Below, one piece after another: positions 16,644-54,648 of a stretch of 64,000 bases of DNA. A model generated the notes under the pieces. It was given only the letters and a program-made list of their open reading frames with translations, made no database searches and was not told the DNA's origin. Source of the DNA: Brevibacterium paucivorans (GTDB lineage Bacteria; Actinomycetota; Actinomycetes; Actinomycetales; Brevibacteriaceae); assembly GCF_016907735.1 (NCBI RefSeq), contig NZ_JAFBCP010000001.1, positions 496,001 through 560,000 on the forward strand, read 5' to 3'. Made by a program: the position numbers and the translations under genes. Numbering within the stretch: the stretch's first letter is position 1; every line of letters begins with the position of its first letter.

Positions 16644-19208
16644 GTGGCTGATCACATCGTAGATGTCGATGTTTCGCTGGAAATGGAATCTTCGTTCCTC
16701 GAATACGCGTACTCAGTGATCTACTCACGGGCTCTCCCCGATGCTCGCGACGGACTTAAGCCCGTTCAGCGACGCATCATCTACCAAATGGGTGATATGG
16801 GCTTGCGCCCCGACCGCCCACACGTGAAGTCATCCCGCATCGTGGGTGACGTGATGGGTAAGCTCCACCCCCACTCCGATGTGGCCATTTACGATGCGCT
16901 GGTTCGACTGAGTCAAGACTTCGTGATGCGCGTCCCGCTCGTTGACGGGCACGGTAACTTTGGAACCTTGGACGACGGGCCGGCAGCCCCCAGGTACACG
17001 GAAGCGCGCCTCGACGACGCAGCGCTCACCATGATCGCCGGACTGGATGAAGACGTCGTCGACTTTGTCCCCAACTACGACAACTCGCTGACGCAACCGG
17101 AAGTTCTTCCCAGTGCTTTCCCTAACCTTTTGGTCAACGGGGCCAGCGGAATCGCGGTGGGAATGGCCACGAACATGGCCCCGCACAATCCGGGCGAAGT
17201 CATTGCGGCTGCCCGCCACCTCATCGAGAACCCGCAGGCCACGGTGAGTGAACTCATGCGGTACGTGCCGGGCCCCGACCTGCCCACAGGTGGTCGCATT
17301 ATTGGTCTCGATTCGATCCGTGAAGCATATGAAACCGGGCGTGGGACCTTCCGGACCCGCGCCACGGTGAAGTTCGAAAACATTTCAGCCAGACGCAAAG
17401 GCATCGTGGTCACGGAGCTTCCGTACCTGGTGGGCCCGGAAAAGGTCATTGAGAAGGTCAAGGACCAAGTTCAGGCCAAACGTCTGACCGGAATCGCGTC
17501 GATCGATGACTACTCCGATCGCAAGCACGGTCTGCGACTAGTTATTGGGATTAAGAATGGGTTCAATCCTGAAGCCGTTCTGGAAGAACTGTACCGGCTC
17601 ACACCTATGGAAGATTCCTTTGGAATCAACAACGTGTGTCTGGTAGAAGGACAACCGCGCACGCTGGGTCTCAAGCCTCTTCTCGAGGTGTTTGTGGACC
17701 ACCGCCTGTCTGTCACCCGGCGACGCACTGCCTTCCAACTGGGGAAGGCGAAAGACCGCTTGCACTTGGTCGAAGGTCTTCTGATTGCAATCCTCGATAT
17801 TGACGAGGTTGTTCAACTCATTCGTTCCTCAGATGACGCTACTCAAGCACGTACGCGCTTGATGGACGTTTTCGACTTAAGTGAAATCCAGGCCACGTAC
17901 ATTCTGGACCTCCAGTTGCGTCGACTCACCAAGTTCTCGCGCATCGAACTCGAGGCTGAACGCGATGAGCTCAAGTCCCGCATCGAATACCTGCAGGACA
18001 TCCTCGACCACGACGACAAGCTCCGCGCCCTGGTATCTGACGAACTCCAAGAGACCAGCGACCGGATTGACTCTCCGCGTCGCACAATCTTGGTCGAAGG
18101 AAATCTCAAGGAGCTTCGTGCAGCCAAGAAGGGTACCAAGCTCACTGTTGCCGACGAACCGTGCTGGGTTTTGTTCTCGACCTCGCAGCGGTTAGCTCGC
18201 ACCACTGGTCAGGATCCCTTGTCTGCTCAGGGTCGGCGCGCATCGCACGATGCTCTGGTGAGCCAAATAGCCACCACCTCGCGGTCGACGATCGCTGCCG
18301 TGACCAACACGGGGCGCGTGGTGGGTGTCGACGTTGTTTCACTCCCCCAGCTTCCCCCGCAAGCTGCCCGTCCCACCGTTGCCGGTGGTGTTCGGGTGAG
18401 CGAGTATTTCACTCTTGAAAAGGGTGAAAAGATTATGGGGCTCATTGACCCTGAACGGGAATGCGTTGTGGGAACCAAACAGGGTGTCATCAAACGCGTC
18501 AATGGCAACGATCAGTTCAAGGACGGGGCCACTCTCATCAATCTCAAGCCCAAAGATGAAATCGTGGGACTTGCCCAACCTGCAGATCTCGACACGCACT
18601 CCGCAGTGTTCATCACGTCGAACGCACAGCTCCTCACGTTCGATCTCGCAGGCGTACGCGCTCAAGGCTACGCCGCGTCCGGGGTTGCTGGTATCAGGGT
18701 TGCGAGTGACGCACACGTGATCGGGTTCTACGCAGTCGACTCACACCAGCCCAACCAGGTCGTCACTATTGCTACAGGCGTGAACTTCGACGGCAAACCC
18801 ACACAGTCCATCAAAGTTTCTGACTTCAACGAATTCCCCCACAAGGGCCGTGGAACCGGCGGTGTGCGCGCACACCGGTTCCTCAAAGACGAAACAGAAT
18901 TGGTTCTGGGGTTCGCTGGCCCGTCGCCACAGGCTTCCGCCGCAACGGGTGGAGCGCGACAGTTGCCAGCTGAACTGTCCAAGCGCGACGCATCGGGACA
19001 GCCACTTGACTCCAAGATCGACGCTGTTGGAACCGTTCCCGTGGCCACCTCATCGCAGGAAACCACAGAGCCACCAGACCGCAGTCAGGAGGCTGCTGCG
19101 ACCTCGGCGACCAACACCGGCATGGCAACCGGCGGACCAAACTTAGGGGATGACCCCACTGCCCACATTGGGCGCGAACGCGAAGACGACGACGGGTCGC
19201 TGTTCTAA
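16644..19208 (+). CDS. parC: DNA topoisomerase IV subunit A
   Basis: An 854-residue type II topoisomerase A subunit that cuts and rejoins DNA with ParE during decatenation. SSFLEYAYSVIYSRALPDARDGLKPVQRRIIYQM opens the winged-helix region, and the catalytic tyrosine is Tyr118 (AAPRYTEARL). It matches the actinobacterial ParC/second GyrA-type pattern rather than GyrA (SYIDYAMSVI). The quinolone-pocket segment reads HPHSDVAIYD (75-84) instead of HPHGDxAIYD. The C-terminal ~60 residues are an acidic, low-complexity tail. The GTG start at 16644 has AAAGGAG upstream. parE is not in the window. Confidence 0.93.
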   Translation: MADHIVDVDVSLEMESSFLEYAYSVIYSRALPDARDGLKPVQRRIIYQMGDMGLRPDRPHVKSSRIVGDVMGKLHPHSDVAIYDALVRLSQDFVMRVPLVDGHGNFGTLDDGPAAPRYTEARLDDAALTMIAGLDEDVVDFVPNYDNSLTQPEVLPSAFPNLLVNGASGIAVGMATNMAPHNPGEVIAAARHLIENPQATVSELMRYVPGPDLPTGGRIIGLDSIREAYETGRGTFRTRATVKFENISARRKGIVVTELPYLVGPEKVIEKVKDQVQAKRLTGIASIDDYSDRKHGLRLVIGIKNGFNPEAVLEELYRLTPMEDSFGINNVCLVEGQPRTLGLKPLLEVFVDHRLSVTRRRTAFQLGKAKDRLHLVEGLLIAILDIDEVVQLIRSSDDATQARTRLMDVFDLSEIQATYILDLQLRRLTKFSRIELEAERDELKSRIEYLQDILDHDDKLRALVSDELQETSDRIDSPRRTILVEGNLKELRAAKKGTKLTVADEPCWVLFSTSQRLARTTGQDPLSAQGRRASHDALVSQIATTSRSTIAAVTNTGRVVGVDVVSLPQLPPQAARPTVAGGVRVSEYFTLEKGEKIMGLIDPERECVVGTKQGVIKRVNGNDQFKDGATLINLKPKDEIVGLAQPADLDTHSAVFITSNAQLLTFDLAGVRAQGYAASGVAGIRVASDAHVIGFYAVDSHQPNQVVTIATGVNFDGKPTQSIKVSDFNEFPHKGRGTGGVRAHRFLKDETELVLGFAGPSPQASAATGGARQLPAELSKRDASGQPLDSKIDAVGTVPVATSSQETTEPPDRSQEAAATSATNTGMATGGPNLGDDPTAHIGREREDDDGSLF

Positions 19209-51508: not shown

Positions 51509-51547
51509 CGTTTGGCTACAGTCGAATCTGCCGAGTGTAGCCAAACG
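51509..51547. repeat. Palindrome C
   Basis: A perfect 12-bp inverted repeat CGTTTGGCTACA / TGTAGCCAAACG around a 15-base interior. Outer CGTTT and inner TACA are shared with palindromes B and D. Confidence 0.75.
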
Positions 51548-51595
51548 ACCACCAAATACCCCCATTTAGTGACCCGCATCACTCTTGCGGGAACT

Positions 51596-51640
51596 TTTCG
51601 ATACACTCGAGCCCCAAAACCGAACTCGAGTGTATCGAAA
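51596..51640. repeat. Palindrome D
   Basis: A perfect 16-bp inverted repeat TTTCGATACACTCGAG / CTCGAGTGTATCGAAA around 13 bases. The right arm continues to CGAAACG, so the half-site again reads CGTTTCGATACA. Confidence 0.8.
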
Positions 51641-51670: not shown

Positions 51671-51706
51671 AAAATCTCGGGGCATCGAGTGAACGACGTC
51701 CCGAGA
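51671..51706 (-). terminator. Intrinsic terminator of the tRNA gene
   Basis: TCTCGGG / CCCGAGA stem with an 18-base loop, followed on the minus strand by ATTTTTG. It begins ten bases after the tRNA discriminator base. Confidence 0.75.
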
Positions 51707-51715
51707 CTTCGCGTG

Positions 51716-51789
51716 TCCCCCCAGTGGGACTCGAACCCACACTGGATCGATTTTAAGTCGACTGTCTCTGCCGATTGGACTATGGGGGG
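51716..51789 (-). tRNA. tRNA with UAA anticodon, short variable loop (Leu-like)
   Basis: A 74-nt cloverleaf: acceptor CCCCCCA/TGGGGGG, discriminator A73, D-arm with 3-bp stem GTC/GAC and loop CAATCGGCAGA, anticodon stem GTCGA/TCGAT with loop CTTAAAA (anticodon UAA, reads UUA), variable loop CCAGT, T-arm GTGGG/CCCAC with loop TTCGAGT. CCA is not encoded. The D-arm and anticodon loop are leucine-like, but the 5-nt variable loop makes it class I, whereas bacterial tRNA-Leu is class II. It is transcribed in the same direction as ndh and followed by its own terminator. Assignment as tRNA is firm; amino-acid identity is not. Confidence 0.85.
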
Positions 51790-51812
51790 CAGGGTTTTAC
51801 CCTACAACAGTT

Positions 51813-51844
51813 TGAGAGGCGACCACACACGTGGTCGCCTCTCA
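51813..51844 (-). terminator. Hairpin after ndh
   Basis: A perfect 14-bp stem (51813-51826 with 51831-51844), loop ACAC, 12 bases after the ndh stop. It also separates ndh from the tRNA. The T-tract is weak. Confidence 0.7.
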
Positions 51845-51856
51845 CACGTCTAACGC

Positions 51857-53230
51857 TTACTTGTTAGCTGGCTCCTTGCGAGGAGCTGGCTTAGAGTGAG
51901 CAGCTTCTACGAAGCTCTTGCGTGGCACGTCCAGGTCCTTCAACGCGGTGAGGTCGCGACCAGCAACGAAGTTGAGGAACCAGTTGGTGAACACGCGGAG
52001 CTTGCGGTCCACGGTAGGAATCGCGTAGCCGTGGTAACCACGGTGCATGAGCCATGCGAGGAAGCCACGGGTTTCGAAGTCACCCATCTGTGCGACACCC
52101 TTGTACAGACCCATACCGGCAACCGCACCCAGTGACTTGTGGAAGTACTGGCGGAATTCGGTTTCGCCACGCAGAGCAGCCAAGATGTTAGCGGCCAGAA
52201 CAGGAGCCTGGCGCACAGCGTGCTGAGCATTTGGCACGCAGTACCCACCTCCACCGCCACCGGAGAGGTCTGGAACAGCAGCGTTGTCACCAGCACCCCA
52301 TGCGCCTTCAACAACACCGTTTTCGTCTTCAACACGCAGGTCAGCGCGAACCGTGAGGCGACCGCGGTCGTCCAGCGGAAGGTCCGAGTCAACCAGCAGT
52401 GGGTTAGCCTTCACACCGGCGTTCCACACGATGGTGTCAGCGTCGAACTCTTCACCGTTCGACAGCTTGCAACGCTTGTTGGTGCAGTCCTGCAGGAAGG
52501 TTTCCAGGTATACGTCAACGCCACGTTCACGCAGGTGGTCAACAACCCAGCGTGCCTGCGCTTCGCCAACTTCTGGCATCACGCGAGGTGCCGCTTCAAC
52601 CAGAACGAAGCGAACGTCGGCTTCGGTGAGGGTTTCGTGCTGGGCAACAGCCGAACGCACCATGTCTTCAATTTCAGCGAGCGCTTCGATTCCAGCGAAT
52701 CCACCACCGACGAAAGCAAACGTCAGAGCCTTGCGACGTTCTTCGTCGTTCTCCATGAGAGCTGCGAGGTCGAGCTGGTTGAGGATGTGGTCGCGCAGAG
52801 CAACAGCTTCTTCAATGCGCTTAACACCAATAGCTTCTTCGTCCAGACCTGGGATCGGCAGTGCGCGTGCAACCGAACCGGCGGCCAGCACAATGTGGTC
52901 GTAGTCCAGTTCGAATGCTTCGTCACCTTCAGGCTCGACAACCGCGTACTTCTTTGCGTGGTTGATGGAGCGAACGTAACCGGTGACAACTTCTGCACCC
53001 TTGAGGTTGCGGCGCAGTGGAACCACAGCGTGGCGTGGTTCGATCGAACCGGCAGCAACTTCTGGAAGGAACGGCTGGTAAGTCATGTATGGGTTGGGGT
53101 CAACAACGGTGACCGTTGCTTCACCTCGACCCAGGTTCTTCAACAGGTTCTGGGCGGTGACCAGTCCGAGGTAACCGCCACCTACTACGAGGACACGTGG
53201 ACGCAATTTGCTATTACGAATCAAAGCCAT
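51857..53230 (-). CDS. ndh: Type II NADH dehydrogenase-like NAD(P)/FAD oxidoreductase
   Basis: A 457-residue peripheral membrane flavoprotein. The FAD loop VVGGGYLG (15-22), a second nucleotide loop FVGGGFAGIE, and GAWGAGDNAAVPD identify NDH-2, which passes electrons from NADH to quinone without pumping protons. The C-terminal LRVFTNWFLNFVAGRD is amphipathic and likely membrane-binding. It lies 55 bases downstream of the severed 3' end of the subtilase gene, so before the IS arrived it may have been in that operon. Confidence 0.92.
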   Translation of the reverse strand: MALIRNSKLRPRVLVVGGGYLGLVTAQNLLKNLGRGEATVTVVDPNPYMTYQPFLPEVAAGSIEPRHAVVPLRRNLKGAEVVTGYVRSINHAKKYAVVEPEGDEAFELDYDHIVLAAGSVARALPIPGLDEEAIGVKRIEEAVALRDHILNQLDLAALMENDEERRKALTFAFVGGGFAGIEALAEIEDMVRSAVAQHETLTEADVRFVLVEAAPRVMPEVGEAQARWVVDHLRERGVDVYLETFLQDCTNKRCKLSNGEEFDADTIVWNAGVKANPLLVDSDLPLDDRGRLTVRADLRVEDENGVVEGAWGAGDNAAVPDLSGGGGGGYCVPNAQHAVRQAPVLAANILAALRGETEFRQYFHKSLGAVAGMGLYKGVAQMGDFETRGFLAWLMHRGYHGYAIPTVDRKLRVFTNWFLNFVAGRDLTALKDLDVPRKSFVEAAHSKPAPRKEPANK

Positions 53231-53455: not shown

Positions 53456-54340
53456 TTAGGAAGCGTGAGTTTCGTACTCAATGGGTGTGAGGTACTTGCA
53501 CCAGGAATGCCTTCGGGTGGTGTTGTAGCGCGCACACCATGCGAAGACGTCGCGCCGGCAGACTAGCTGATTGGAAAAGACTTTCTGGTCTTTGAGCACT
53601 TCTCGTTTCAACGCCGCGTTAAACGACTCCGCGAGTGAATTATCAGCGCTGCTGCCAACTGCTCCCATCGACTGGGTGACGTTGAGTCTTCGGCAGACAG
53701 CCTGAAACTGCGATGAGGTATACACGCTGCCATGATCTGAGTGGAAGATCGCCCCGGAGAGACTGCCACGGGTACGGCGAGCATGCTCGAGCGCTTCTTC
53801 GACGAGGTCGGTGCGCATGTGGTCTGCGATCGCGAAGCCGACGAGCATCCGCGAGTAGCAGTCAATCACAGAAGCCAGATACATATTCGACCCGTCTGCG
53901 ATCGGCAGATAGGTAATATCGCCGACGAGGATCCTATTGGCAGCTGGCGCAGTGAAGTTACGCTTGACCAGGTCAGCGAATATAAAGCGATGACGCTCAC
54001 GCTGCGTTGTCGTGACCTTACGTTTTTTCGTGTAGCCGCGCAGCTGAAGCTTCCTCATAATCCGGGCGATGCGCTTATGGTTGACCGGTCCGGTGCTACT
54101 GTACGCATCGTTGAAAGTCAGCTCGGCGGCAATGCGTTTTGCGCCGTAGAGCTGCCTCTTGTCGTCGAAGATGGCCTGGACCTTGGCTCCGAGTATGGCA
54201 TCATCAACCAGTCTGCGGTGCCGCTGGGCGCTGCTAGCTTTCCATTTGTAGTAGGAGCTGCGGTTTAACCCGAGTACGGTGCACATCCGCTTGACCGAGT
54301 AATCGGTGCGGTGGTCATCAACGAACCGGAAGCGGATCAC
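53456..54340 (-). CDS. IS3-family transposase OrfB (DDE integrase domain)
   Basis: A 294-residue integrase-like transposase with an HTH_21-type N-terminus (YSVKRMCTVLGLNRSSYYKW) and catalytic triad Asp141 (VGDITY), Asp202 (HSDHGS) and Glu238 (SLAESFNAALK), DD35E spacing. The GTG start overlaps the orfA stop (GTGA). In IS3 elements an OrfAB fusion is made by -1 frameshift; I see no clear A6G slippery site, so coupling by re-initiation is also possible. Confidence 0.94.
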   Translation of the reverse strand: MIRFRFVDDHRTDYSVKRMCTVLGLNRSSYYKWKASSAQRHRRLVDDAILGAKVQAIFDDKRQLYGAKRIAAELTFNDAYSSTGPVNHKRIARIMRKLQLRGYTKKRKVTTTQRERHRFIFADLVKRNFTAPAANRILVGDITYLPIADGSNMYLASVIDCYSRMLVGFAIADHMRTDLVEEALEHARRTRGSLSGAIFHSDHGSVYTSSQFQAVCRRLNVTQSMGAVGSSADNSLAESFNAALKREVLKDQKVFSNQLVCRRDVFAWCARYNTTRRHSWCKYLTPIEYETHAS

Positions 54341-54648
54341 CAGTTCGTCTCTTCCATGAAATATTTGGCTGCCTTACACAAAATATCGCGTTCTTCTTTC
54401 AGGCGGGCGTTTTCCTGTTGCAGCTGACGTAGCTTCTCAGCATCGGTCAGTTGCCTCGCACGATCAGCACGTAAGCCCGCTGAAAGCTGGGGTTTCGTGC
54501 CAGTTCCGTACTTATCAACCCATACGCGAAGCGTGGAGCGGTTGATCCCTAAATCAGCGGCCGCAGCGTTCAACGACACCTGTGGATCGTTCTCGTACAT
54601 CGCGACCGCGTCGAGCTTGAACTGATCCGAATAAACCTTCCTAGGCAT
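54337..54648 (-). CDS. IS3-family transposase OrfA (helix-turn-helix)
   Basis: A 103-residue protein: HTH (SLNAAAADLGINRSTLRVWVDKYG) and a leucine-zipper-like end (LRQLQQENARLKEERDIL) for dimerisation. It binds the element ends and is the first part of the OrfAB transposase. Confidence 0.93.
   Translation of the reverse strand: MPRKVYSDQFKLDAVAMYENDPQVSLNAAAADLGINRSTLRVWVDKYGTGTKPQLSAGLRADRARQLTDAEKLRQLQQENARLKEERDILCKAAKYFMEETNW

Follow-up and report, generated by a model that had tools for sequence, protein, structure and literature searches.

The only UAA tRNA gene of a Brevibacterium paucivorans genome encodes a class I tRNA-Leu with a short variable loop, the usual form in many actinomycete families

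A leucine tRNA gene downstream of ndh

The window analysed here is a stretch of 64,000 nucleotides from the Brevibacterium paucivorans contig NZ_JAFBCP010000001.1 (positions 496,001 to 560,000), and all coordinates below are positions within it. A tRNA gene lies on the minus strand downstream of an ndh-like gene, with the following features.

51857–53230, minus strand: ndh-like NAD(P)H dehydrogenase gene, 457 aa, the upstream neighbour of the tRNA in a conserved context; named from its sequence
51814–51843, no strand assigned: perfect hairpin GAGAGGCGACCAC/GTGGTCGCCTCTC between ndh and the tRNA, in a stretch that folds at -36 kcal/mol; putatively functional
51799–51804, minus strand: weak candidate -10 element (TAGGGT) for a separate tRNA promoter, found by eye
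51716–51789, minus strand: tRNA-Leu(UAA), class I, 74 nt to A73; sole UUA-reading tRNA gene of the genome
51753–51755, minus strand: anticodon TAA (ARAGORN and sequence) in the loop CTTAAAA, a loop partly fixed by the search pattern described below and found in 106 of 113 distinct class I sequences
51741–51745, minus strand: variable loop CCAGT, 5 nt, whose last base, U48 (112 of 113), pairs with A15
51716, minus strand: discriminator A73 (113 of 113), the main leucine identity element (PMC9976931)
51670–51706, minus strand: strong terminator-like hairpin (51675–51706) followed by T5, downstream of the tRNA

ARAGORN calls a tRNA-Leu(taa) on the minus strand at 51715–51789. The Rfam tRNA model (RF00005) matches 51716–51789 over its full length, positions 1–71 of 71, with 57.7 bits (E 7.8e-10) against a gathering score of 29, which places the sequence in the tRNA family. 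An earlier sequence-only reading had described a complete 74-nt cloverleaf with a UAA anticodon, A73 and the variable loop CCAGT, and had asked for a covariance-model check; both programs agree with its description. Read 5′ to 3′ on the minus strand, the acceptor stem is CCCCCCA/TGGGGGG with seven pairs, the D-stem GTC/GAC encloses a D-loop with A14 A15, G18 G19 and A20a, the anticodon arm is GTCGA-CTTAAAA-TCGAT and the T-arm is GTGGG-TTCGAGT-CCCAC. All helices are paired except at 13-22, where a C-A combination is found, unlike in most class I tRNAs; class II tRNA-Leu is also mismatched at this position. The CCA end is not encoded, as is the case for many other tRNA genes of the genome. A class II tRNA has a variable arm of at least 10 nt and this one has 5 nt; the gene at 51716–51789 is a leucine tRNA, yet not class II. 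Its first pair is C1-G72, as in most of the genus, whereas most relatives have G1-C72 or G1-U72; elsewhere in this genome C1-G72 occurs only in tRNA-Pro.

Sequences of the form TANNNT, comparable to TAGGGT, are present just upstream of the tRNA in most members of the genus, and a sigma-70 promoter scan at the tRNA locus found nothing. The sequence-only reading had also given the tRNA its own terminator. A strong hairpin followed by T5 is indeed present, but a simple terminator scan did not call it, and it is missing from the closest relative (L047), whose ndh is 99% identical; an own terminator is plausible. Further downstream, at 51511–51640, we noted by eye REP-like palindromes such as TTCGATACACTCGAG...CTCGAGTGTATCGAA and TTTGGCTACA...TGTAGCCAAA. 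Beside ndh, at 53456–54648, lies an insertion sequence with two transposase-like reading frames and the look of the IS3 type.

At about 21 named loci among the matches listed, the tRNA has an ndh homologue nearby, in most cases immediately upstream and in the same orientation; part of the genus shows this neighbourhood too. The suggestion that the gene might be conserved beside ndh was thus correct, and the conservation is deep. Class II tRNA-Leu(UAA) genes occupy the same place in two other genomes (G037 and G240), where they follow ndh directly and in the same orientation; in two genomes taken to be Streptomyces (G060 and G143) they lie some 6 kb downstream of it. The occurrence of both classes in the ndh slot indicates either that the slot predates the switch of class or that one class replaced the other in place.

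tRNA genes and LeuRS of the genome

The complete, single-contig genome of 2.41 Mb gave 43 tRNA matches, all of which were analysed with ARAGORN. Five are tRNA-Leu genes: those with anticodons CAA, UAG, CAG and GAG are 82–88 nt long and class II, and the fifth is the class I UAA gene, the only UAA gene among the 43. A direct search of the same genome for a class II tRNA-Leu(UAA), as had been proposed, returned one sequence only, which was not tRNA-like, leaving the class I gene as the sole UAA gene. The genome encodes a single complete bacterial LeuRS (TIGR00396, 882 bits over two pieces).

Leucylation in E. coli requires A73, the A15-U48 pair, G18G19 and A20a, and the long arm and the anticodon are both dispensable; human mitochondrial tRNA-Leu(UUR) is likewise charged without a long arm (review PMC9976931). 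A73, A15-U48, G18G19 and A20a are all present in the tRNA at 51716–51789, judged by the rules for E. coli LeuRS, which may differ for the actinomycete enzyme. Each of the genome's five tRNA-Leu combines A14-A15, U48 and A73, as do only two of its other tRNAs, Ala-UGC and Lys-CUU.

The gene might also derive from a class I tRNA for another amino acid whose anticodon has mutated. In plain sequence identity the closest full-length tRNAs of the genome are Asn-GUU at 77% and several others at about 75%, with no clear donor among them, and we rejected this origin. A wrong isotype is further countered by the leucine-type D-loop and by the retention of the same gene throughout the genus.

UUA codons and leucine

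UUA makes up 50 of the 1729 leucine codons in crudely called genes of the window. It is found in ordinary genes, including the housekeeping-type genes for topoisomerase A, Mfd and PurK. The topoisomerase-A-subunit gene (16644–19208) was aligned with 29 homologues, nearly all from other families. At its two well-covered UUA sites leucine was found in 28 of 29 and 23 of 28 homologues, usually encoded by CTG or CTC. Over all three UUA sites 52 of 61 residues were leucine (85%) and 98% were L, I, V or M; leucine made up 4% of the non-leucine columns. The test is strong for this one gene, at its two well-covered sites. In alignments with PDB homologues, inspected by eye, leucine agrees at UUA of Mfd-407 and ManA-180/283, and several UUA sites of GlgX, PccB and PurK are hydrophobic or mixed. 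These comparisons point to UUA being read as leucine by this tRNA.

Conservation of class I tRNA-Leu(UAA) and its D-arm signature

The pattern used to collect 113 distinct class I tRNA-Leu(UAA) sequences prescribes parts of the anticodon loop and T-arm, so that conservation in those parts is not evidence; positions outside them were free to vary. A73 is present in 113 of 113, U48 and G18G19 each in 112, and A14A15 in 110. The pairs of the stems are nearly always formed, and most positions show three to six different standard pairs. Covariation together with conserved identity bases is what selection on a functional tRNA leaves behind.

The two classes differ in the D-arm. Class I sequences have A9 (97/113), C12-G23 (109/113) and C13 (110/113), whereas the class II sequences (n = 22) have G9 and G12-C23 without exception and G13 in 18. 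Bases 9, 12-23 and 13-22 and the variable loop stack together in the core of class I tRNAs, and a coupled change is therefore what would be expected if the core had been repacked.

Distribution

Of the 25 genomes of the genus, 23 carry a single match each, all class I and all with an identical 30-nt spacing; the two genomes with no match are among the less complete ones. A reversed control pattern gave no match in the 25 genomes. Matches with a fixed spacing, and none for the reversed control, are not due to chance.

In a sample of the phylum, many families of the class Actinomycetes had class I; class II was seen in a genus presumed to be Streptomyces and in many of the other classes. Among the matches listed, holders of class I include Mycobacterium, Nocardia, Rhodococcus, Gordonia, Dietzia, Tsukamurella and Corynebacterium, together with Microbacterium, Arthrobacter and relatives, Nocardioides, Pseudonocardia, Streptosporangium and Actinomadura. 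The pattern with TTAAAA missed C38 tRNAs, those of Streptomyces included, and a version widened to TTAAM took in tRNA-Asn; the resulting counts are no measure of the frequency of class I. Outside the phylum class I tRNA-Leu(UAA) is sporadic, and several such genomes also carry a class II UAA tRNA. Class I was present in most of the actinomycetes sampled and is the usual form of tRNA-Leu(UAA) in many of their families, a group-wide variant and not the peculiarity of one genome that the sequence-only reading implied.

Two observations concern Streptomyces olivoverticillatus. A bldA-type class II tRNA-Leu(UAA) (L314:1476-1560) has C33 (loop CCTAAAC) in place of the near-universal U33, which may be a sequencing error. 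A second tRNA-Leu(UAA), of class I (L101:1708-1784), lies near a phage-type DNA methyltransferase-like open reading frame.

Relatives in phages and tRNA arrays

BLAST found relatives of the tRNA in 66 phage records, with hosts including Lactobacillus, Pseudomonas, Rhodococcus, Prochlorococcus, Synechococcus, Vibrio and Myxococcus. The five phage tRNAs that were checked, four tRNA-Leu(UAA) and one tRNA-Leu(UAG), all lack the long arm. Identity reaches 85–88% in phages of Lactobacillus and cyanobacteria. Class I tRNA-Leu genes with the anticodons UAA, CAA, CAG, GAG, UAG and AAG also occur in dense tRNA arrays of Nostocales, Planctomycetota, an Actinomycetes MAG and Saccharofermentans (L166, L163, L146 and L143 respectively).

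A FastTree phylogeny of 147 tRNA-Leu sequences was built from 68 columns after removal of those of the variable arm. It set 114 of the 123 class I sequences, phage sequences included, apart from all 24 class II sequences with a support of 0.99, a split that cannot by itself tell common origin from convergence. Nine class I sequences fell outside the main class I group, which suggests that some short-armed tRNA-Leu probably arose separately.

From the split in the tree, the 85–88% identity with phage tRNAs and the presence of both classes in the ndh slot, one might tentatively suppose that class I is a separate tRNA-Leu lineage, shared by phages, arrays and actinomycetes, which either displaced class II in the ndh slot or moved from actinomycetes to phages; we regard this as a possible history but not the probable one. 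A very similar pattern would result from convergence, brought about by the structural coupling between D-arm and variable loop.

Discussion

It is very probable that the gene at 51716–51789 encodes a functional elongator tRNA-Leu(UAA) of class I, charged with leucine by the ordinary LeuRS and inserting leucine at UUA. The single bacterial LeuRS would accept the short form because A73, A15-U48, G18G19 and A20a have all been kept, leucine identity residing in A73 and the D-loop/T-loop corner formed by the other elements, and not in the long arm. The charged tRNA would then insert leucine at UUA, for which the genome holds no other tRNA with a U34 anticodon; its CAA tRNA-Leu would decode UUG only. 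We infer that the tRNA is transcribed, charged and used in decoding, and the gene probably has an ordinary, essential function. Loss of the long arm would have been accompanied by the changes G9 to A, G12-C23 to C-G and G13 to C, as the core was repacked from class II to class I geometry.

Of the explanations put forward earlier, a shortened tRNA-Leu is the one that the evidence favours. A tRNA charged with another amino acid, with UUA recoded in this lineage, might be suspected from a class I shape that is atypical for bacterial tRNA-Leu and from A35 A36 and A73, which are shared with tRNA-Phe. The D-loop, however, is fully that of a leucine tRNA, with A15-U48, the anticodon UAA differs from the GAA of tRNA-Phe, and the tRNA groups with phage and actinomycete tRNAs called Leu. 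Leucine in the UUA columns of homologues from other families, together with the complete set of leucine identity elements, contradicts such a charging. Recoding of UUA is, to our knowledge, unreported in well-studied genera with the same tRNA, which also counts against it, and we consider it exceedingly unlikely. That the gene is decaying or silent after losing its variable arm seems next to impossible: the short variable loop and the missing CCA could be taken as signs of decay, but an encoded CCA is also missing from many other tRNA genes here and all stems are intact. Decay is contradicted by compensatory changes and conservation over many genera, and by the position of the gene as the sole UAA tRNA in a genome that uses UUA.

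The anticodon is that of Streptomyces bldA, and the UAA gene of the presumed Streptomyces genomes follows an ndh homologue at a distance of about 6 kb. These likenesses raise the question of a similar switch, in which UUA would be rare and confined to regulated genes and the tRNA would regulate translation. UUA in housekeeping-type genes (topoisomerase A, Mfd and purK) shows that it is not so confined, and the developmental significance of bldA may stop at the Streptomycineae (review PMC4255298). A switch of this kind is very unlikely here, and we found no evidence for the regulatory tRNA-like RNA that the sequence-only reading had considered.

The rule that bacterial tRNA-Leu is class II serves annotation, models of tRNA identity and the reading of tRNA-directed toxins and defences. 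The only tRNA that can decode UUA in this genome breaks that rule, in a form common to a large bacterial group, Mycobacterium and Corynebacterium among them. Such a tRNA provides a natural test of the requirements of bacterial LeuRS and of how the D-arm and the variable loop are coupled. Genes of this kind are simply labelled tRNA-Leu by annotation programs. In the open literature, to which our search was confined, we found no description of the class I tRNA-Leu(UAA) of actinomycetes; it is an unusual class that is apparently undescribed, though it may already be known.

Several known tRNAs resemble it in part. One is a tRNA-Leu(UAG) from a mycobacterial tRNA array, described in main-text passages of PMC6582537 as having a short variable loop. 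It too is an actinobacterial tRNA-Leu, but it belongs to an array and a normal class II UAG copy makes it redundant; those passages make no mention of the UAA tRNA. Mitochondrial tRNA-Leu(UUR) also lacks the long arm and is charged by LeuRS through A73 and A14 (PMC9976931), but it is organellar, structurally weaker and presumed to be of separate origin. The class II tRNA-Leu(UAA) of the Streptomyces bldA type (L296 and L297) shares the UAA anticodon, A73, A14 A15-U48, A20a, the three-pair D-stem and the mismatched 13-22, and is near ndh in some species. It differs in having a variable arm of 14–17 nt, G9, G12-C23 and usually G13, in place of 5 nt, A9, C12-G23 and C13. The tRNAs of Prochlorococcus phage P-SSM7, Rhodococcus phage Trina and Myxococcus phage Mx1, and those of the arrays L146, L163 and L166, have the same short loop and D-arm. 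Many of these phage and array tRNAs have the same anticodon, with about 80–88% identity over the aligned part in several phages; they often stand beside class I tRNA-Leu genes of other anticodons, whereas in B. paucivorans there is a single chromosomal gene beside ndh.
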